Part shown: positions 4,567-26,083 of the stretch, in pieces
Layout: the number at the start of each line of letters is the position of its first letter
How positions within the stretch are numbered: position 1 is the first letter of the stretch
Source: Acetofilamentum sp.
GTDB taxonomy: Bacteria; CAIWAD01
Assembly: GCA_020726405.1 (NCBI GenBank)
Contig: DYSB01000003.1
Location: 1-54,066 of the forward strand
DNA: 54,066 bases
Direction: 5' to 3'
The notes under the pieces: model-generated
The model's database searches: none
What the model was told of the DNA's origin: nothing
The model's input: the letters and a program-made list of their open reading frames with translations, nothing else
Position numbers and translations under genes: made by a program

Positions 4567-4659
4567 GCTGGCGGCGCGCTTTGTAGATTGACTCCCGAAG
4601 CGGGTCCCGCGCGAAGTGGGGCCCGCACGGAGCGCGGTCCCACAGACGGGAGACGGATC

Positions 4660-6519
4660 ATGACCGAGCTGTTGCAACGCAACGAGATATTCCAGGTGCT
4701 CACACCCGAGGAAGCCGTGCTGCTGGCCGGCCTGCTGAAGGAGGAGCGCCTGCACGCTGGCGACGTGGTCTTCCGGCAGGGTGAGAAGCGCCGGCGCCTG
4801 ATTCTGGTGCAGAGCGGGGCCATCCGGGTGAGCGAGCGCACGCCCCGGGGCGAGCAGGTGCTGGTCACGTACCACGCCGGCCATTTCCTTGGCGAGGCGG
4901 CGCTGCTGGACGACACGCCGCACAGCACCACGGCGACGGCCGCGCTGGATTCGGTGCTGCTCACGCTGGAGCGCGGGCGCTTCCAGAAGTTCCTGGAGGA
5001 GCATCCGCAGTTGGCCGCCCGGGTGCTGGGGCAGGTGGCCCGCGTGGTGTTCGGGCGGATGAAGCTCGGGCTGGCTGCGGCGGGCGGAGCCGCCCAGTAC
5101 CGCACCGGTGCCGTGCGCGTGGAGCACGACCTGTTGGGGGACCGCGAGGTGCCGCGCGACGTGTATTACGGCGTGCAGACCCTGCGGGCGCTGGAGAATT
5201 TCGACATCACGGGGATTCCCCTGCACCATTTCCCTTTCTTCATCAAGGCGCTGGCCATGGTGAAGAAGGCCGCGGCCCAGGCCAACACGAGGCTGGGCCT
5301 GCTGCCGGAGGACCTCTCCACTGCAATCCAGCAGGCCTGCGACGAGATCATCGACGGCCAGCTCCACAACCAGTTCGTGGTGGACATGGTGCAGGGCGGG
5401 GCGGGCACCAGCACCAACATGAATGCCAACGAGGTGATCGCCAACCGCGCGCTGGAACTGCTGGGCGAGGAGATGGGCTGTCACACGCGCCTGCATCCCA
5501 ACGACCACGTCAACCTCTCCCAGAGCACCAACGACGCCTATCCCACCGCCATCCACCTGGCCATGCTGCTCAGCGTGCGGCCCCTGGTCTCGGAGATGGA
5601 GGAACTGGTGGAGGCCCTGCGGGTCAAGGCGCGGGAGTTCTCGCGGGTCATCAAGATGGGCCGCACCCAGCTCCAGGATGCCGTGCCCATGACCCTGGGC
5701 CAGGAATTCGCCGCCTGGGCCCAGTCCGTGGAAGAGGACATCGACCGCCTGAAGGAGAACGCCCTGCTCTTCCTGGAAGTGAATCTGGGCGGCACGGCCA
5801 TCGGCACGGGCATCTGCGCCGACCCCTCCTATCCGCGCGAGGCCATCAAGGCCTTGCGCCGGGTCTCGGGCTTCGAGTTCATCCTGGCCAAGGATCTGGT
5901 GGAGGCCTCCAGCGACACGGGCAGCCTGCTGATCTTCAGCGGCATCCTGAAGCGCGTGGCCGTCAAGACCAGCAAGATCTGCAACGACCTGCGCCTGCTC
6001 TCCAGCGGCCCGCGCTGCGGCTTCGGGGAGATCAACCTGCCGGCGCGCCAGCCGGGCAGCAGCATCATGCCCGGCAAGGTCAACCCGGTGATCCCCGAGG
6101 TGATGAACCAGGTGGCCTTCCAGGTCATCGGCAATGACCTGACGGTGACCATGGCCGCCGAGGCGGGCCAGCTGGAGCTGAACGTGATGGAGCCGGTCAT
6201 CGTGTTCAACCTGTTCCAGAGCATGAGCATGCTCGAACGGGGTTTCCGCACGCTACGCCGCTTCTGCGTGGAAGGGATCACGGCCAACGAGGAGCGCTGC
6301 CGCAGTCTGGTGGACAGTTCCATCGGGATCGTCACGGCCTTGCTCCCCTGGATCGGCTACACGGCGGCCACCACGGTAGCGCGGCGGGCGCTGGAGTCGG
6401 GCATTCCGGTGCGCGACATCGTGCTGGAGATGGGTCTGCTCTCCCCGGCGGAGCTGGAGGACGTGCTGCAGCCCGAGCGCATGGTGGCCCCGGTGCGGCT
6501 CTCGGCTGATCGCGGCTGA
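4660..6519 (+). CDS. aspA: Cyclic-nucleotide-binding domain fused to aspartate ammonia-lyase
   Basis: Residues about 5-120 form a CRP-type cNMP-binding domain (RNEIFQVLTPEEAVLLAG, then GHFLGEAALLDD). From about residue 147 a complete aspartase follows, with the superfamily signature GSSIMPGKVNP at 466-476 and MNQVAFQVIGND, which is aspartase-like rather than fumarase-like. It would deaminate aspartate to fumarate and ammonia, and the N-terminal domain could gate this allosterically. In the cNMP domain the usual phosphate-binding arginine after GE is replaced (PHSTTATA), so the ligand may not be cAMP. The ATG at 4660 has CGGGAG upstream; an in-frame TTG at 4588 would add a low-complexity leader. 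The lyase part is about 473 residues, normal for the family. Confidence 0.88.
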   Translation: MTELLQRNEIFQVLTPEEAVLLAGLLKEERLHAGDVVFRQGEKRRRLILVQSGAIRVSERTPRGEQVLVTYHAGHFLGEAALLDDTPHSTTATAALDSVLLTLERGRFQKFLEEHPQLAARVLGQVARVVFGRMKLGLAAAGGAAQYRTGAVRVEHDLLGDREVPRDVYYGVQTLRALENFDITGIPLHHFPFFIKALAMVKKAAAQANTRLGLLPEDLSTAIQQACDEIIDGQLHNQFVVDMVQGGAGTSTNMNANEVIANRALELLGEEMGCHTRLHPNDHVNLSQSTNDAYPTAIHLAMLLSVRPLVSEMEELVEALRVKAREFSRVIKMGRTQLQDAVPMTLGQEFAAWAQSVEEDIDRLKENALLFLEVNLGGTAIGTGICADPSYPREAIKALRRVSGFEFILAKDLVEASSDTGSLLIFSGILKRVAVKTSKICNDLRLLSSGPRCGFGEINLPARQPGSSIMPGKVNPVIPEVMNQVAFQVIGNDLTVTMAAEAGQLELNVMEPVIVFNLFQSMSMLERGFRTLRRFCVEGITANEERCRSLVDSSIGIVTALLPWIGYTAATTVARRALESGIPVRDIVLEMGLLSPAELEDVLQPERMVAPVRLSADRG

Positions 6520-8251: not shown

Positions 8252-8989
8252 TCAGGGGGCGAGGTCGCCCAGGAAGGCGGGGCCGCCCAGTTGGGACATC
8301 TGGCCCTGGATCCAGGCGCTGCGCTCCTGCATGTAGGGTCCCGGGCGTGCCGCCGAGTACCGGCGCGGCGAGGGCAACACGGCGGCCAGCCGCGCAGCCT
8401 GTGAGCGGGTAACGCGATCGGGACGGGTGCGCAGCAGGTGGCGCGAGGCCGCGCCCACACCGTAGACGCCGTCGCCGAACTGGGCGATGTTGAGATAGAC
8501 CTCCAGGATCCGCCGTTTGGGCCAGGTCACTTCCAGCAGCACGGTGATCCCGGCCTCCAGCCCCTTGCGCAGCCAATTGCGTCCCGGCCAGAGGAAGAGA
8601 TTCTTGGCCACCTGCTGGCTCAGCGTGCTAGCCCCGCGGATCCGGCGGCTGCGTCCGTTGTGTTGCAGGGCCTTGCCGATGGACTCCAGATCAAAACCCC
8701 AGTGGTCGGGGAAGCGTTGATCCTCGGCGGCGATCACGGCCAGGGGCAGCTGGGCTGACATGTCATCCAGGTCCACCCACTGGTAACGCAGCGGCGGGGC
8801 GTCCTCCCGGAACAGGCCCTCCACCCGGCGCTGGAGCATGACGGAGCTGGTGGGCGGCGGGGCCCAGCGCAGCACCAGCACGAGCAGCAGCAACAGGGCC
8901 GTCAGGGCGCCCAGCACGTAGAGAGTCCGGCGCAGCCAGAGCCGCGCCCAGGCCAGCCGTCCGCCGGCCGGCTTCCGCTCTTGTCTCAC
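8252..8989 (-). CDS. mtgA: Monofunctional peptidoglycan glycosyltransferase
   Basis: This 245-residue protein polymerises lipid II into glycan strands at the outer face of the inner membrane. It has one N-terminal membrane helix (about 22-41) and a GT51 domain with the catalytic glutamate in AAEDQRFPDHWG (E89), then RGASTLSQQVAKNLFL and LEVYLNIAQFG. There is no transpeptidase domain, so it is the monofunctional type. The start is GTG at 8989, overlapping the stop of the large sensor gene by GTGA, so translation is coupled to that gene. Length is typical of MtgA. Confidence 0.92.
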   Translation of the reverse strand: MRQERKPAGGRLAWARLWLRRTLYVLGALTALLLLLVLVLRWAPPPTSSVMLQRRVEGLFREDAPPLRYQWVDLDDMSAQLPLAVIAAEDQRFPDHWGFDLESIGKALQHNGRSRRIRGASTLSQQVAKNLFLWPGRNWLRKGLEAGITVLLEVTWPKRRILEVYLNIAQFGDGVYGVGAASRHLLRTRPDRVTRSQAARLAAVLPSPRRYSAARPGPYMQERSAWIQGQMSQLGGPAFLGDLAP

Positions 8990-11900
8990 GCCATCCCCAG
9001 GAAATCGTAGCTGGTTTTCTTGCGCAGGTTCCCCAGCAGCGTGAAGAAACGTTTGAGCATGGCCTCCTCGGGCGCGCTCCATTCCTGGGGCGTGATCAGG
9101 TTCGACGGGTCGCGGCTTTCCAGCACGGCTGCCGTCTGCCGGGAGAGGCGTAGCCGCAGGATATCCTCGTAGTCCTGCGTCAACTCTCCGTGGCTCTCTT
9201 GGCTCAGACCGCCCAGTTCGTGCAGGCGGGCCAACCGGTCCAGCGTGTGGGTCTCATCGAGACCGTGCTTGAGTGCGTAGAGGCGCCCCGTGTTGACCAC
9301 GGGCAGCAGGGCCTCCTTCAGGTCCAGCGCCCGGACCCCCGCCGGCGTGGACGAACTGAGCAGCAGGTTGCCCCGCAGGCCCAGTGCCGGCTTGCTCAAT
9401 AGCGTGTTCTGAGCCAGGTGCAACAGGAAGGGCGGGTGCTGGCGGATCTCGTCCAGCACGAAGCCGCGCAGTTCGTGGGCCAGGGCGGGATCGCCGCCCA
9501 CGGCGCGGAAGTCGAAGGCGATGTTTAAGTCGAGCAATTCCTGGGGGCCGGCCTCGCGGATCCAGCGCGAGAAGCGCGCGCGCCAGTCCGCGGCGGACTG
9601 GTTCCAGCGCGCCTGGGAGGCCATCACGCCACCCGTGCATTCACGGTAACCGGCCGTGGCCAGGCCGGCGCAGACGCGGCGGCCCAGTTCGAGGAAGTAG
9701 GCCGTGCAGGCCTCGCGCTCCTCGGCGGGCGGGTCCTCGTAGAGCAGGCCGTTGTCCTGGTCGGTGAGCAGCGTCTGCTCCTGGCGGCCCTCGCTGCCCA
9801 TGGCCAGGAAGACAAAGCGCGCCGGCGGCGGGCCCATCTGCTCCACGGCCAGGGCCAGCAGGCGCTGCAGCGCGCCGTCCGCCACGCTGCTGATCAGGCG
9901 GTTGATTGCCCGCATGCGTGTGCCGGAGACCAGCAGGGCCTGGACCAGCCGCGGCAGGCGGCCCACGGCCTCGGCCAGTTCCCCGGCGTTGGCGGCCTGG
10001 CCCAGGGAGTGGGTCAGGATCACGGCGCTGTAGTGGCGGAAGTGCACGAGGTTGCGGTCCCGCAGCACGCCCGCCAGCCGGCCCGCGTCATCCAGGGCCA
10101 CCAGGTGGCCGATGTGCCGGTTCTGCATCTGCAGGATGGCCTCGTAGACCAGGGCGTGGACGGAGATGGTGGCCAGTGGCGCGCTCATGATCTCGCGCAC
10201 GGGCCGCGAGGCCTCCAGCCGTCCGGCGGTGACCCGGGCCCGGAAATCGCGGTCGGTCACCAGGCCGATGGGCTCGCCCTGCTCCGTCACCACCACCAGG
10301 GCGCTGGAGTCCGCCAGACTCATGCACTGGGCGGCCTCGGCGATGGAATGCCCCGGGGTGAGCGCGGGCACGGGCCGCACGGCGGGCGTGACAGGCTCCT
10401 GCAGGTAGAACAGCGAACTCTGCAGTTGGCCAATGAGCTCCTCGCGCCGGGCCTCCTCGCGCACTTGTTCGCTCATGTCCTCGAGCACGCCATCGCAAAC
10501 CGTCCGGCCCTCCTCGCGCACCAGCACGGCGAAGAGCCGCACCTCGGCGCGCGAACCATCGGCGCGGCGCAGGGCCAGCCGCGGCCACTCTGCGCTCTCC
10601 TCGCGCTCCAGGCGTTCCACCAGCTCGCGCCGGACCGGCTCCTCGGCCACGTGCTCGAGCCAGTCCACCCCGTCCACGGCGACCTCGGGCTCCAGACCCA
10701 GCAGGCGGCGCATGGCTGGATTGGCATCCAGCAGGAAGGCGCCGTCCTGCCAGGAGCTGCGGAAGACACCCATCCGGATGGAGCGCGTGAGCTTGCGGTA
10801 GTGCCCGCGGCTGCGCCGCAGCGCGGCGGTGAGTTCCTTGTGGCGGCCGATGTCCCGGGCCACCAGGATGAAGCCGCGCCGGCCCTCGAAAGCGATGGGC
10901 GAGGCAGAGAGCAGGACCTCGGCGTATCCCCCGTCCGGCCGTTTAAGCCGCGCCTCGCCGCCCGGCGGGACGGCGCCGCCGTGCAGCAGGGCCTCCAGCC
11001 ACTCCAGAGCGCGCCGATCGGCCGGACGGTCGTCGGCGAACAGATCCCGCACGTGCCGGCCGGCCAGCTCGCCCACGCCCGCGCCGCAGAGCAGCTCCAT
11101 GGGCCGGTTGGCGTAGGCACAGTCCCCGTCCAGCACCATCAGCGTGCCCTCGCTGCCGGCCTCCGCCAGGGAGCGGTACTTCTCGCGGCTGCTCTTGAGT
11201 TCGCGCTCGGCCCGTGCCCGGCGTGTCTCCAGGGCCAGGCTCTGGCGCATCACATAGAGCAGCAGCAGGCCCACCAAGGCGGCGATGAGCAGCGTGATCC
11301 AGACCAGCCGGCCGCGGACCCGGGCCATCTCGGCCTGGACGTCCTGGGTGTAGATGCCTGTGCCGATCACCCAGCCCCAGGGCCGGAAGGCCTGCACGTA
11401 GGAGAGCTTGGGGACGATCTGGCCCGGGTTGTCTTTCCACTGCCAGTCGTATTCCACATAGCCGGCGTCGCGCTCGCGCACCGCCTCCACGAACTCCACG
11501 AACACGCGTCGGCCGTGGGGGTCGCGGAATTCCGAGACGTCGCGACCGTTCAGGTCCGTGCGCCAGGGGTGCATGATCATCACGGGACGCAGGTCGGTGA
11601 TCCAGAAGTAATCCTTGCCCTCCGGACCGTAACGCAACCGCTCGATGCGGCCGGCAGCCTCCCGGCGGGCGCGCTCCGGCGCCAGATGTCCGCTGGCCGC
11701 TTCGTCCGCGTACTCCTGCAGGATGCTGGCCGCTGTGCGCGTCAGTTCGCGGATGGTCTCCTTTTTCCGCTCCAGCAGCTGGGCTTCCATCATGGGGATG
11801 AAGACGCCGAAGATGGCCAGCAGGAAGAGCACGCCGGCCAGCGCCACGGGCAACCCGATGTGGAGTAGGAAGCCGCGCCAGTTGCGCTCGCCACCCAGGG

Positions 11901-12654
11901 ACTTCCGGCCCCGACCCACGCGCAGGAAGTCGCGGCCCGCCCAGCCCAGCACGCGTGCCAGGGGCAGCCAGGCTTCCTCGGGTAGCTCCAGGCCGGGAGC
12001 GGGGGCGCCCAGGCCACTGCCCGGGCCGTGGTAGTCGCTGCCGCCGCTCACCAGCAGGTCGTGCTGCGCGGCCAGCCCGGCCAAGGCCGCGCGGGTCGCC
12101 TCGTCATAGCTGAGATAGTGGGCCTCCAACCCGTCCAGGCCGCGGGCTTTCCAGTCGGGCAGTCGGGCCGCCAGCTCCTCCAGTCCGGCCAGCCCGGCCA
12201 GCGGATGGGCGGCGAAGGTCAGGCCGCCGGCCTCGTGCACAAGGCGGCAGACGGTCTCCAGAGGCAGCGCGCCTTGACCGGGTCCCAGGGCGACGGCGCC
12301 CGGCTGCCGGCCGCCGCGCAGGGCTCCGGCCACCTGGGCCACGTGCGGATGCCGATTGGAATCCAGGGCCTGCAGCAGGGCCGGGTTGCGCTCGTTGAAG
12401 TGGTAGGCCAGCACGTGCAGGGTGCCCTCGGGGGTCAGGGCGTCGATCTCCGCGCCGCTGACCACGTGGATGCCGCGCGGCTCCAGGGTGCCGCGGAAGC
12501 GCTCCAGTCCGGCGACGGTGTTGTGGTCGGTAAGGGCCGCGTAGCGCACGCCGGCGTCCGCCAATTCCTCCGCCAGCTGCTCGGGCGAGAGCACGCCATC
12601 ACTGAAGGAACTGTGGCAGTGCAGGTCGATACGCCAGGCGCGCGCCGGACTCAT
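8986..12654 (-). CDS. PHP phosphoesterase-Cache-PAS-PAS-CBS-DUF294 nucleotidyltransferase fusion
   Basis: This is a 1222-residue protein with an unusual chain of domains. A PHP phosphoesterase of TrpH type occupies about 5-250 with every metal motif present: HCH (12-14), TDH (42-44), E69 in SGAEID, FAAHP and GGSDYHG. A membrane helix (about 262-286), an extracytoplasmic Cache domain (about 290-445, YFWITD, GWVIGTGIY) and a second helix (448-468) follow. Two PAS domains (about 493-600, 615-735), a CBS pair (about 765-885), a GlnD/DUF294 nucleotidyltransferase with GSEGRQEQ and D965/D967, and a DUF294 C-terminal domain complete it. CBS-DUF294 proteins are often encoded beside DUF485/acetate-type symporters, as here, so it probably senses substrate and controls transport or uptake metabolism. 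The PHP part is predicted cytosolic. Confidence 0.88.
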   Translation of the reverse strand: MSPARAWRIDLHCHSSFSDGVLSPEQLAEELADAGVRYAALTDHNTVAGLERFRGTLEPRGIHVVSGAEIDALTPEGTLHVLAYHFNERNPALLQALDSNRHPHVAQVAGALRGGRQPGAVALGPGQGALPLETVCRLVHEAGGLTFAAHPLAGLAGLEELAARLPDWKARGLDGLEAHYLSYDEATRAALAGLAAQHDLLVSGGSDYHGPGSGLGAPAPGLELPEEAWLPLARVLGWAGRDFLRVGRGRKSLGGERNWRGFLLHIGLPVALAGVLFLLAIFGVFIPMMEAQLLERKKETIRELTRTAASILQEYADEAASGHLAPERARREAAGRIERLRYGPEGKDYFWITDLRPVMIMHPWRTDLNGRDVSEFRDPHGRRVFVEFVEAVRERDAGYVEYDWQWKDNPGQIVPKLSYVQAFRPWGWVIGTGIYTQDVQAEMARVRGRLVWITLLIAALVGLLLLYVMRQSLALETRRARAERELKSSREKYRSLAEAGSEGTLMVLDGDCAYANRPMELLCGAGVGELAGRHVRDLFADDRPADRRALEWLEALLHGGAVPPGGEARLKRPDGGYAEVLLSASPIAFEGRRGFILVARDIGRHKELTAALRRSRGHYRKLTRSIRMGVFRSSWQDGAFLLDANPAMRRLLGLEPEVAVDGVDWLEHVAEEPVRRELVERLEREESAEWPRLALRRADGSRAEVRLFAVLVREEGRTVCDGVLEDMSEQVREEARREELIGQLQSSLFYLQEPVTPAVRPVPALTPGHSIAEAAQCMSLADSSALVVVTEQGEPIGLVTDRDFRARVTAGRLEASRPVREIMSAPLATISVHALVYEAILQMQNRHIGHLVALDDAGRLAGVLRDRNLVHFRHYSAVILTHSLGQAANAGELAEAVGRLPRLVQALLVSGTRMRAINRLISSVADGALQRLLALAVEQMGPPPARFVFLAMGSEGRQEQTLLTDQDNGLLYEDPPAEEREACTAYFLELGRRVCAGLATAGYRECTGGVMASQARWNQSAADWRARFSRWIREAGPQELLDLNIAFDFRAVGGDPALAHELRGFVLDEIRQHPPFLLHLAQNTLLSKPALGLRGNLLLSSSTPAGVRALDLKEALLPVVNTGRLYALKHGLDETHTLDRLARLHELGGLSQESHGELTQDYEDILRLRLSRQTAAVLESRDPSNLITPQEWSAPEEAMLKRFFTLLGNLRKKTSYDFLGMA

Positions 12655-12718
12655 GCGGAATCCTCCCGGGTGAGTGCAGGGTCAACTTCGGAAACGAAGG
12701 GCTCTCCTAGCCCGCAAA

Positions 12719-12775: not shown

Positions 12776-14683
12776 CTAGTGCTCCACCCCCGTCGTGGTG
12801 CGCGTGGTCAGCAGCGAGACCATGATCAGGGCCAGGAAACTCAGCGGGATGGAGATCACGCCGGGGTTGTCCAGCGGGAAGGGGGCCGTGGACGGGTCCA
12901 GTCCGTATTTCTCATACAAACTGGGGGAGAAGAGGATCAAGCCCACCGAACTGAGGATGCCCACCGTGATGCCCGCCGTGATGCCCTTGGCCGTTGTTCG
13001 TTTCCAGAACAGCATCATCAGGATGGCCGGCAGGTTGGCGCTGGCCGCCACGGCGAAGGCCAGACCCACCAGGAAGGAGACGTTCATGCCCTTGAACAGG
13101 ATGCCCAGCACGATGGCCAGGATGCCCACGGCGAAGGCGGCCACCTTGCCGGCGTGGACCTTCTGCGCCTCGTTCATGTTGCGGCCCGCGTAGCGGTCCA
13201 TCAGGTCGTGGGCCACGGCGCCGGAGGCGGCGATGATCAGCCCGCTCACGGTGCCCAGCACGGTGGAGAAGGCGATGGCCGAGATGACCGCGAAGAGCAG
13301 TTCGCCGAAGGAGCGCGCCAGGAGCGGCGCCGACATGTTGTTGTCCAGTGGATTCACCACGCCGCTGGTCATGGCGCCCAGGCCCATGTAGAGCGTGAGC
13401 ACGTAGAAGGCGCCGATGGCCGCGATGGCCACGATGGTGGACTTGCGTGCCGAGGTGGGGCTGGGCACCGTGTAGTAGCGGATGAGGATGTGGGGCAGCG
13501 CGGCGGTGCCGAAAAAGAGGGCCAGCATCAGCGAGATGAAGTCCAGCTTCTCCAGCGGCGTGCCTTCCACTTTGAACTTGAGACCAGGACGCATCACGCG
13601 GTTGCCCGGGGTTTCCTGGGGGTAGATCACCTTGACCTTGGCGCCGTCTTCCGCCGTGAAGGAGACATCCTTCCAGCGGCGCACCACGGTCTCCTTGTCC
13701 GACATCAGCGAGAGATACTCGAGGGGTCCCGCCGGGCCCGACAGGGCCGCATCGCCCGTGCGGCCGGCCACGCGGACCAGATTGCCCACTTGGCGAAACT
13801 TGTTCTCCGGCGAGGCGGGCGCGCCGTTGATCACATGCGTGCCGTCCGCGCTCTTGGCCTCCCACTGGGCCTGGGTCAGTGTCACACGGCCGTCATCCCC
13901 TTCCTCCACGTGCCACCAGCCCTCGCCGGCGGGACCGGCGAGGCGCACGAAGCGCGCCTGCTTCACCGCGGCGTTCTCCAGCACGGCGAAGGTGCTGTCC
14001 AGGGGCAGCACCGCGTCGCCGGCCAGCGTGGCCTGCAGCACGGCGGGCTCCACGAAGGGGACCTTGCCGCCCTGATCCGGGGCCGGGTTGAAGCCGCGCA
14101 CCAGCACGGCGATCACCAGCGCCAGGGAGAAGATCACCAGCAGGGCGCCCTTGATGAACTGCACGTAGGTGGTGGAGGTCATGCCGGCGGTGGCCACGAT
14201 GGTGATCACGATGGCGCCGACCATGATCACGCCCCAGGCGTGGGGGATGCCCAGCAGGGGTTCCACCAGCACGCCGGCGCCCACCATTTGCGGGATCAGG
14301 TAGAAGATCGAGACGATGAGCGTGCTGATGGCCGCGGCCAGCTTGATCCCGCGGGAGTCGAACTTGGCGTCCAGCGCATCGGTGAACGTGTACTTGCCCA
14401 GTCGCTTCATGGGCTCGGCTACGATGAACAGCGCCACGATCCAGCCGGCCAGGTAGCCGATGGAATAGAGGAAGCCGTCGTAGCCGGCGGTGGCGATCAT
14501 GCCGCAGATGCCCAGGAAGGAGGCGGCGCTGAGGTAGTCGCCGGCGAAGGCGATGCCGTTCACCGACCAGTGGATGGTGCCGCCGGCCGCGTAGTAGGCG
14601 CTGGCCGAGGTCGTGCGACGGGCCAGCCAGAACGAGAGCCCCAGCACGCTGGCCACAAAGAAGAGGAAGACCGTGATCGCCAT
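12776..14683 (-). CDS. Sodium:solute symporter, acetate-permease (ActP)-like
   Basis: This 635-residue inner-membrane transporter belongs to the SSS family and would couple Na+ entry to uptake of a short carboxylate such as acetate. Features seen are the N-terminal helix with GLSFWLARRTTSASAYYAAG, AFAGDYLSAASFLG, and the later helix GTVSGLIIAASGAVAHDLMD. A hydrophilic insertion of about 180 residues (roughly 197-374) sits between membrane helices and makes the protein longer than the 549-residue E. coli ActP. Its start overlaps the DUF485 stop by one base (TGATG), and GGGAGGAAC precedes it. This symporter-DUF485 pair is the classic actP-yjcH arrangement. Confidence 0.85.
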   Translation of the reverse strand: MAITVFLFFVASVLGLSFWLARRTTSASAYYAAGGTIHWSVNGIAFAGDYLSAASFLGICGMIATAGYDGFLYSIGYLAGWIVALFIVAEPMKRLGKYTFTDALDAKFDSRGIKLAAAISTLIVSIFYLIPQMVGAGVLVEPLLGIPHAWGVIMVGAIVITIVATAGMTSTTYVQFIKGALLVIFSLALVIAVLVRGFNPAPDQGGKVPFVEPAVLQATLAGDAVLPLDSTFAVLENAAVKQARFVRLAGPAGEGWWHVEEGDDGRVTLTQAQWEAKSADGTHVINGAPASPENKFRQVGNLVRVAGRTGDAALSGPAGPLEYLSLMSDKETVVRRWKDVSFTAEDGAKVKVIYPQETPGNRVMRPGLKFKVEGTPLEKLDFISLMLALFFGTAALPHILIRYYTVPSPTSARKSTIVAIAAIGAFYVLTLYMGLGAMTSGVVNPLDNNMSAPLLARSFGELLFAVISAIAFSTVLGTVSGLIIAASGAVAHDLMDRYAGRNMNEAQKVHAGKVAAFAVGILAIVLGILFKGMNVSFLVGLAFAVAASANLPAILMMLFWKRTTAKGITAGITVGILSSVGLILFSPSLYEKYGLDPSTAPFPLDNPGVISIPLSFLALIMVSLLTTRTTTGVEH

Positions 14684-14967
14684 CAGTTCCTCCCCTCTTT
14701 GGACGCCAGCAGCCGCTCGCGCACGGAGCAGATCCGGTCATAGATCAGCGCCAGCACCAGGGCCACCAGGATCAGGCCCATGCCGTAGACCACCGCCAGA
14801 TTGAGTCCGGCGAAGACCGTGCGCTCCATGGCCAGGGGATCGGCGATGTTGATGGCCACGAACCCGATGTAGATCAGGGCGTAGACGGCGAACATCCAGA
14901 CGCCCAGTCGGGCTTTGAAGGCGGAGCTTGGGTCTTTGCCCGTGGGGGCAGCGGGTTTGTGCAGCAT
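14683..14967 (-). CDS. DUF485 membrane protein (YjcH-like)
   Basis: This 94-residue protein has two membrane helices (about 27-49, VWMFAVYALIYIGFVAINI, and 61-81, LNLAVVYGMGLILVALVLAL) and a charged tail. It matches the DUF485 family, whose members are encoded with acetate-type symporters and are presumed accessory subunits. A strong AGGAGGT precedes the ATG. It is the first gene of the unit that continues through the symporter, the PHP/Cache sensor and mtgA. Confidence 0.88.
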   Translation of the reverse strand: MLHKPAAPTGKDPSSAFKARLGVWMFAVYALIYIGFVAINIADPLAMERTVFAGLNLAVVYGMGLILVALVLALIYDRICSVRERLLASKEGRN

Positions 14968-15195: not shown

Positions 15196-16712
15196 CTATG
15201 CCTCGGGCGGCGCGGGAGGCAACTTGGCCAGCCAACGCCGGCGGCGCCATTCACGGATTGCGTCCAGCCACTGATCGGCCTTCAGGTGGAAGGCCGGCAC
15301 CACCAGCAGGCTGAGCGCCGTGGAGACCGCCAGGCCCGTCAGGATGCCGATGGCCATGGGCGAGCGGATCTCCGAGCCCGGACCCAGTTCCAGGGCGGAA
15401 GGCAGCGCGGCCATCATGGTGGCCGTGCTCGTCATCAGGATGGGCCGCAGACGCTTGGGACCGGCCTCCAGCAGGGCATCCCGGGCCGCCAGTCCGCGCG
15501 CCTGGGCCTGACGCGCGTAGTCCACCAGGATGATGGAGTTCTTCTTGACGATGCCCAGCAGCAGCAGGCCGATCATCGAGAAGATGTTCAGGCTCTTGCC
15601 CGCCAGCCAAAGTCCGCCCGCCGCGCCCGCCACGGAGAGCGGCAGGATGGTGAGCACGGTGATGGGACGCAGCAGGGAGTTGAACTGGGAGGCCAGCACC
15701 ATGTAGGCCACGGCGATGCCCAGGAAGAGCGTCATCAGCAGGCTGCCCATGGATTCCTTGACGGCCACGCTGGCTCCGCCCAGCACCAGCCGGTGCCCGC
15801 CGGGCAGATCACGGCCCATCTCCTCCACCGCGGCCAGCACCTCCTGCTGGGCGTGGCCGGGCGCCACGTTGGCCGTGATGGTGATGGCGCGTTCGCGATC
15901 CCGGCGGGTGATGGCCTGGAGGGCGGGGCGTTCCTCGGTGACCACCACGCTGGAGAGTGGCACCAGTTCGCCGGCCGCCGTGCGAACCCGCAGGCGCATC
16001 AGGTCCTCGGGGCGCGAGCGCTGGCTCGCCAGCAGGCGCATGCGCACGTCCAGGTGCCGGCCACGTCCTCAACGGGAATACCCAGATCGGCGCAGCGTGC
16101 CCGGTCCGGCATGACACGCAATTCGGGCATGCCCACCTGGTAGTCCGTGTCCACGTCCACGGCCAGGCCGCTGGCCTGCACCCACTCGCGCTCGGTGCTG
16201 GCCAGTTCCAGCTCGGCGCGGGTCAGGTCGTTGCTGCCCACCAGACCGGCCTCGCGCCGCACCTGGATCTCCGTCAAAGAGCGGATAGCCAGCTCCCGGC
16301 GTTCCACGGCGGCCCAGCTGTCATGTCGCGCCTGGCCCACCAGCGGCAGCGCCTGGGCGTCGAAGAGCAGCTGGCTGGCGCCTGCCCGGGCCTCCCAGCC
16401 CTCGTAGCTGGAACTGCCCGAGGCGCCGCCCTCGCTGGCGTATTCGCTGCGGTCCAGGTCCAGCCTGAGGCTGGGCAGCAGAACGGACCAGGCCTGGCCC
16501 ACCCGCGCGGAAGCGGCCTGGCGCCCGGCCCGGGCGATGGCCGCGCGTTCATGATGCTCCAGGGCGGCCTGGATGGCCTGCTCCAGGCTGAGGGACGTCG
16601 CGGCCTGCGCCGGCAGGGCGGCGGCCAGCCCGAGTGTGAGAAAAAGCCCCACGCGGGGCCAACAGGAGCGGAAGGGCTCGGAGCGCCTGGCTCGGTCGGG
16701 TCTGGTTGTCAT
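15196..16712 (-). pseudogene. Deletion-born chimera of a TolC-like protein and an RND efflux permease
   Basis: The 5' part, from ATG 16712, encodes a signal peptide and the first half of an outer-membrane efflux protein (SLSLEQAIQAALEHH to NDLTRAELELAS). Near 16160-16180 the frame passes directly into the periplasmic domain of an RND permease (DVDTDYQVGMPELRV). The second half of TolC, any adaptor gene and most of the permease are gone. Near 16050-16070 a second lesion shifts the frame and removes about 20 residues after VEDVAGT. The rest, to the stop at 15196, is a normal RND C-terminus (LGIAVAYMVLASQFNSLLRP, GIVKKNSIILVDYA). This is a remnant of a tolC-adaptor-RND operon and should not make a working pump. 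An assembly collapse could give the same picture. Confidence 0.82.
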
Positions 16713-16818
16713 GGATGGTCCCGGAATACTCTCGACAGGGCTAGGTAGCACCGCGAATGCAGGGCACCTGCGGCAAGCCTGGCGGGAAGGCGGGATGTGA
16801 ATTCTTGAGCACCCGGGC

Positions 16819-25730: not shown

Positions 25731-26083
25731 GGGGACGTTCGTGGGATTCGACGGGATGGTCGGGACCCCGGGCTGCATGTCGTGGACGTGTCGGAGCACC
25801 ACGTTAAAAGTTTCGACAACAACATAATCGGCAACGATTACGCTCTCGCCGCCTAGTAACTAGGCAGCCGAAGACCCTGAGCATGCTCACTGCCCAGGGA
25901 CCCTTCGTCATCTTGTGAGCTGGCCCCAAGGATGTGGTTGAGTCGGCGGGGCGAGATCTTTCAACCTGGGGGCGCCGCAGCGTGACCGTTCGCGTCGGTG
26001 TCCTGAGATCAAACAACGGTCTACACATGTAGAAGCCCAGGGAAGCGCTGTTTCGGACGAGGGTTCAACTCCCTCCGTCTCCA
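25731..26083 (+). ncRNA. ssrA: Transfer-messenger RNA (tmRNA), one-piece
   Basis: The tRNA-like ends pair: GGGGACG (25731-25737) with CGTCTCC (26076-26082), followed by discriminator A (26083). CCA is not encoded. The 5' block TGGGATTCGACGGGAT and the 3' T-arm GGGTTCAACTCCC are characteristic. The tag frame ends NDYALAA with stops TAG TAA TAG at 25854-25863. The resume codon is uncertain: GGC gives GNDYALAA, while a more upstream start gives a longer tag such as DNNIIGNDYALAA. The RNA rescues stalled ribosomes with SmpB, which is not encoded here. A TATGTT (25714-25719) is a possible -10 box. There is no intron or permuted two-piece form. Confidence 0.95.

Follow-up and report, generated by a model that had tools for sequence, protein, structure and literature searches.

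What can a single polypeptide do that carries a phosphoesterase at one end, a nucleotidyltransferase at the other and a membrane-bound sensor between them? This question is raised by a gene on the minus strand (8986..12654) of the window, that is, the whole 54,066-nucleotide stretch of Acetofilamentum sp. DNA analysed here (contig DYSB01000003.1). The open reading frame of 1222 codons starts with ATG, is preceded by a Shine-Dalgarno-like GGGAGG (12662..12667, minus strand) 7 bases 5′ of the start codon and runs without interruption; the stretch joining the PHP and Cache parts was examined for a stop codon and contains none. The encoded order is PHP, membrane helix, sCache_2, membrane helix, PAS, PAS, two CBS domains, DUF294 and DUF294_C, and all Pfam domains exceed their cut-offs. 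The original prediction had described one continuous frame with the key residues of its modules in place, and both points held: H12, H14, D43-H44, E69, the later H150 and D207, G953-S954 and D965/D967 are present.

The receptor gene is the third in an operon on the minus strand, in the order DUF485, symporter, receptor. The first gene (14683..14967) encodes a small membrane protein recognised by Pfam DUF485 and overlaps the start of the second (12776..14683), which encodes an ActP/MctC-like sodium:solute symporter (Pfam SSF) with a loop insertion of ~140 residues. DUF485 and an SSS symporter thus lie upstream on the same strand, as in ActP/MctC operons. The NCBIfam MctC and ActP matches of the symporter are under the curated equivalog cut-offs, and its substrate class is a predicted one. 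The end of the receptor gene is overlapped by a gene for a monofunctional transglycosylase. Elsewhere on the plus strand, a single frame (4588-6519) encodes an aspartase/fumarase-type lyase with a cyclic-nucleotide-binding domain at its N terminus, and a tmRNA gene with the tag GNDYALAA is located at 25731-26083.

Because the genome is a fragmented draft of 281 contigs and a second chimera-like junction occurs at ~16.2 kb, we considered whether the receptor is itself an assembly chimera or a frame accident. The identical fusion was found in independent genomes (G001, G002, G386, G503, G505, G365, G523 and G564, and across two contigs in G094), which refutes this explanation; its probability is practically nil. 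The distribution also refutes the possibility that homologues are always encoded as separate proteins. Outside the phylum of the window, the PHP fusion occurs in G094, in G386, in G503, G505 and G245, and in G365, G523 and G564. Since the phylum searches were complete for the sampled members and their sets did not overlap, these genomes represent five phyla including the window's own, so that an assembly artefact is excluded. The PHP fusion is a conserved family rather than a singleton. At the other junction (15196-16751, minus strand), the open reading frames combine two half-proteins, the N-terminal one from a TolC-like outer membrane protein and the C-terminal one from an AcrB-like transporter; the counterpart in G001 is a complete AcrB-like frame of 1027 residues (L033 14671-17754), and the junction is probably a deletion or misassembly.

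Two genomes of the same genus, G001 and G002, encode full-length orthologues with 72% and 63% identity, respectively. Identity to these two is 70% and 58% in the PHP domain and 70% and 60% in DUF294, indicating that both domains evolve alike. pN was well under pS for the receptor orthologues, with synonymous change near saturation, and the full-length proteins, PHP included, are under purifying selection. More distant members show some variation. The G094 copy, which is split across two contigs, has the symporter directly upstream; in G365, PAS and CBS gave no recognisable matches. In G245, the HxH end of the PHP domain is in another frame and the DHD segment is missing (L111 5002-5517 and 5414-8941), reflecting either a broken gene or a sequence error. 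In a sixth phylum (G574 and G183), PHP is encoded by a separate upstream gene that overlaps the start of the Cache-DUF294 gene. The G183 version of this PHP lacks HxH (L091 5715-6800), and its Cache domain contains an in-frame stop.

The PHP phosphoesterase domain comprises residues 8-240 (11935..12633, minus strand). The Pfam match covers its first half (residues 10-75), and the second half was aligned with solved PHP enzymes (PDB relatives 3e0f, 2yb1 and 7ug9). The metal ligands H12, H14, D19, D43-H44, E69, H80, H150, D207 and H209 are kept in every complete copy. The best NCBIfam matches are 3′,5′-nucleoside bisphosphate phosphatase and RNase RNM, with scores (105 and 79) that fall far short of the respective cut-offs (400 and 375). 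RNase AM and CV1693 (PHP, YciV/TrpH) resemble the receptor domain in PHP fold, as judged by sequence, and in the same metal ligands, but they are not fused to a receptor and their capping insertion has ~70 residues, compared with ~25 here. In those enzymes, the insertion forms a cavity of positive charge, in which the 5′ phosphate lies buried and the base is stacked, and RNase AM acts on 5′-phosphorylated RNAs of up to five nucleotides and also on longer ones (PMC9410882). In all members of the fused clade, a short and variable remnant of this cap is left. The reduced insertion and the sub-cut-off scores place the fused PHP outside the RNase AM and bisphosphate phosphatase families, and we infer that its pocket is open and may accept a bulky substrate. 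The fused PHPs form one clade (97/95), separate from the free-standing PHPs of the sampled genomes. A single-sequence structure model of the PHP domain reached a mean pLDDT of 43 and a two-row model of CBS-DUF294 reached 52, both too poor for a fold search.

The two membrane helices predicted to flank the Cache domain were recovered as hydrophobic stretches at 260-295 and 446-475, with the helices themselves assigned by hydropathy to residues 261-286 (11797..11874, minus strand) and 448-470 (11245..11313, minus strand). Both segments have Arg/Lys-rich flanks at their outer sides, the first on its N-terminal side, which places PHP and the PAS-to-DUF294 part in the cytosol. The sCache_2 sensor between them (residues 295-445; 11320..11772, minus strand) matches the Cache domain of the chemoreceptor PscD (PDB 5g4y, E=1.6e-37), which represents the C2/C3-carboxylate sensors of the PscD/McpP type. 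The ligands of PscD are acetate, glycolate, propionate and pyruvate, which it contacts with Tyr90, His103, Tyr143, Lys156, Trp92, Trp145 and Phe126 (PMC5062169). All seven propionate-contact residues are matched in the receptor (Y349, W351, H362, F385, Y402, W404 and K416), and they are invariant among members of the receptor clade wherever the region is complete. The output of PscD, in contrast, is an MCP domain rather than a nucleotidyltransferase and phosphoesterase. Together with the MctC/ActP-like symporter upstream, the PscD-like pocket points to a C2/C3 carboxylate as the probable ligand. This ligand class is well supported, and the earlier proposal of an external carboxylate sensor is strengthened. 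The two PAS domains and the CBS pair that had been named were also found by Pfam: PAS at ~492-602 and ~619-730, and CBS up to ~872. We delimit them as residues 492-602 (10849..11181, minus strand), ~612-735 (PAS_8/PAS_9 in the second stretch; 10450..10821, minus strand) and ~764-872 (two CBS stretches; 10039..10365, minus strand). The anatomy of the receptor is well supported.

At the C-terminal end, DUF294 (residues 899-1037; 9544..9960, minus strand; Pfam E=8e-47) is followed by the helical DUF294_C domain (residues 1075-1218; 9001..9432, minus strand). The putative catalytic residues G953, S954, D965 and D967 and a third acid, D1048, are 97-99% conserved in 77 loci. A PDB sequence search with DUF294 gave no meaningful match. 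With a CBS pair, DUF294 and DUF294_C, all above the Pfam cut-offs, this part belongs to the COG2905-type CBS-DUF294 proteins, exemplified by the Pseudomonas aeruginosa PA3232-PA3235 cluster with the ActP homologue PA3234. As here, COG2905-type loci have DUF4212 or DUF485 and an SSS symporter as neighbours. They differ from the receptor in lacking PHP, Cache and a membrane anchor, and in annotated plasmid loci they have a separate, adjoining gene for a DEDDh 3′-5′ exonuclease. The Cache-PAS-CBS-DUF294 part is not unique to the window's protein and also exists in other phyla (G049, G075, G104, G111, G228 and the Bacteroidetes locus L032), with 33-40% identity from the first membrane helix on. 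These receptors have no PHP and instead neighbour an EndoIV-like TIM barrel or a calcineurin-type phosphoesterase. A scan of genome contigs yielded one relative only. The C-terminal module is a known, uncharacterised family, and the PHP-less Cache receptor is known in other phyla. The searchable open literature, which covers few subscription papers, yielded no demonstrated activity of a DUF294 protein and no functional study on DUF294, COG2905 or the combination of PHP, Cache and nucleotidyltransferase; the PHP fusion and the interchangeable pairing with phosphoesterases likewise appear to be undescribed there.

A close analogy in enzyme content is GlnD, where a metal hydrolase likewise shares one chain with a GlnD-type transferase and its helical C-terminal domain; DUF294_C has been grouped with the C-terminal helical domain of GlnD/GlnE (PMC3710099). 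GlnD, however, has HD and ACT domains, whereas the receptor has PHP in place of HD and membrane-receptor inputs in place of ACT; neither an HD domain nor an ACT pair gave a Pfam match in it. A PII-like target had been suggested. Searches of three genomes with a member of the family (G001, G386 and G574) detected no PII, and the window's genome gave a weak match of 29 bits, in what is an indirect test. No PII-GlnD pair was found in the window's genome. GlnD/GlnE are absent from its genus and are present alongside the PHP-DUF294 receptor in G503, G245 and G523. Because PII was not found in three carriers and others have GlnD/GlnE of their own, PII is unlikely to be the target of the receptor.

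To see which genes accompany DUF294, we surveyed 386 genomes without selection, found DUF294_C in 41 of them and analysed 53 loci. A DEDDh exonuclease lay <1 kb from the DUF294 gene in 17 loci and at a greater distance in 3; the partner was PHP in 7, mostly as a fusion, a calcineurin-type phosphoesterase in 3 and an EndoIV/xylose-isomerase-like TIM barrel in 3, and 20 loci had no recognised partner. The adjacency of 17 of the 20 exonuclease matches exceeds what random position would give (p ~1e-11, assuming 2 of 13 gene slots). All calcineurin-type, TIM-barrel and PHP matches in the surveyed windows were also adjacent, a count biased by profiles that were built from adjacent genes. A HAD phosphatase adjoining L061 was not accepted as a partner class, being one convergent case. 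Annotated plasmid records gave a similar picture, with a 3′-5′ exonuclease adjoining or near DUF294 in 7 of 8 loci from Pseudomonadota, Bacteroidota and Bacillota. The calcineurin-type partners fall into two groups with little resemblance to each other, which lie upstream and downstream, respectively. The link to the EndoIV-like TIM barrels is weaker: 5 of 6 have a convergent orientation, and isomerases also occur in this fold, so that these neighbours may be sugar isomerases. Convergent genes of this kind next to PHP-less Cache-DUF294 receptors were seen in L035, L055, L056, L057 and L086. N-terminal fusions are frequent among the DUF294-linked exonucleases (L067 6885-8324, L069 7232-9211, L036 12185-14071 and L059 4007-6142) with membrane segments as judged by eye and, in L036 and L059, PAS by Pfam; the exonuclease partner may itself be a receptor. 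Overall, the pairing of DUF294 with phosphoesterases is well supported.

In a tree of the DUF294 module (quick search, midpoint root), 13 PHP carriers and two PHP-less members form one clade (98% SH-aLRT); the clade members L061 and L063 have no recognised partner. The PHP clade adjoins receptors linked to calcineurin-type or TIM-barrel genes, and all of these are nested inside the exonuclease-linked set. This nested position suggests replacement of a separate exonuclease gene, in one instance by a PHP which became fused. Every gene of the PHP clade has a symporter or DUF485 gene within <200 bp, when the two contig halves of G094 are counted as one. The ~140-residue symporter insertion was found in 11 of the 13 PHP-clade loci, two calcineurin-linked and two unpartnered loci, and in 0 of 8 measurable exonuclease-linked loci. 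The inserted loop may serve for docking or as a site of modification.

The reading that these observations best support retains the earlier idea of a membrane receptor with opposed writing and erasing enzymes, on the strength of the PscD-like pocket and the recurrent, unrelated phosphoesterase neighbours, and drops PII as the target. An external C2/C3 carboxylate (acetate, glycolate, propionate or pyruvate) would bind the periplasmic Cache domain, and this signal, joined by a PAS input and an adenine-nucleotide input through CBS, would shift the balance of two cytosolic sites. The DUF294 site would attach a nucleoside monophosphate to its target. The PHP site, open because the RNase AM-type cap is missing, would hydrolyse the nucleotide off again. 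The likeliest target would be a carboxylate-uptake protein of the operon (the symporter, its inserted loop or DUF485) or another protein of carboxylate assimilation. The logic would be that of GlnD, with PHP replacing HD and Cache, PAS and CBS replacing ACT. To this carboxylate-tuned writer and eraser, whose reaction, target and direction we infer, we assign a probability of about 45%. Occurrence of the fusion in five phyla, together with the pairing of relatives with other phosphoesterases, suggests an undescribed signalling system in which a nucleotide is attached and removed. More tentative is the wider proposal that reversible nucleotidylation of this type is widespread, with DUF294 as the writer and erasers drawn from at least three, perhaps four, unrelated metal-dependent folds (DEDDh, PHP, calcineurin-type and EndoIV-like); the window's protein would be its most integrated form, one transmembrane acetate/propionate receptor with both enzymes.

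The substrate of the adjacent phosphoesterases could instead be RNA or a small nucleotide, and not a modified protein. DUF294 might make a small nucleotide signal, such as an oligonucleotide or a nucleotidylated metabolite, for which CBS or other domains serve as readers and which the PHP, DEDDh, calcineurin-type or EndoIV-like partner degrades. Characterised relatives of the partner folds do degrade short RNAs and nucleotides (RNase AM, PMC9410882), the best family matches of the PHP domain are enzymes of this kind, and adenine nucleotides are ligands of CBS domains. However, the receptor has lost the cap with which RNase AM and CV1693 hold the 5′ end of the nucleotide, and this speaks against a small-nucleotide pocket like theirs. 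The C-terminal domain moreover assigns DUF294 to the GlnD/GlnE type (PMC3710099), in which the members studied have proteins as their targets. We regard this alternative as unlikely. Alternatively, DUF294 might extend RNA ends that the phosphoesterase trims, thereby regulating carboxylate-responsive transcripts or tRNA. That the commonest partner is a DEDDh 3′-5′ exonuclease and that the PHP domain is closest to RNase AM-like enzymes would fit such a module, but the receptor has no RNA-binding domain, the RNase AM cap is absent, and the enzyme is held in the membrane next to a symporter, which together make it improbable.

It is also conceivable that PHP and DUF294 serve separate purposes, with PHP present as a passenger or in a structural role and with neighbours that are carbon-metabolism genes. 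The loss or breakage of PHP in some clade members and the weak link of the convergent EndoIV-like genes are consistent with this idea, but the PHP ligands are conserved under purifying selection like that on the remaining domains, and DEDDh, PHP and calcineurin-type partners each recur at the same position. We therefore consider it the least probable of these three alternatives.

DUF294/CBS proteins adjoin acetate-type symporters in a large number of bacteria, among them cultured and clinical species. The natural fusion, and the swapping of phosphoesterase folds at one position, point to a testable reaction in which DUF294 adds a nucleotide and its neighbour removes it. The complete C2/C3-carboxylate pocket of the clade provides a candidate signal, and the symporter, its extra loop and DUF485 provide candidate targets. 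If the preferred reading of a carboxylate-tuned writer and eraser is true, the receptor would represent a new type of transmembrane signalling, in which both opposing enzymes reside within one receptor.
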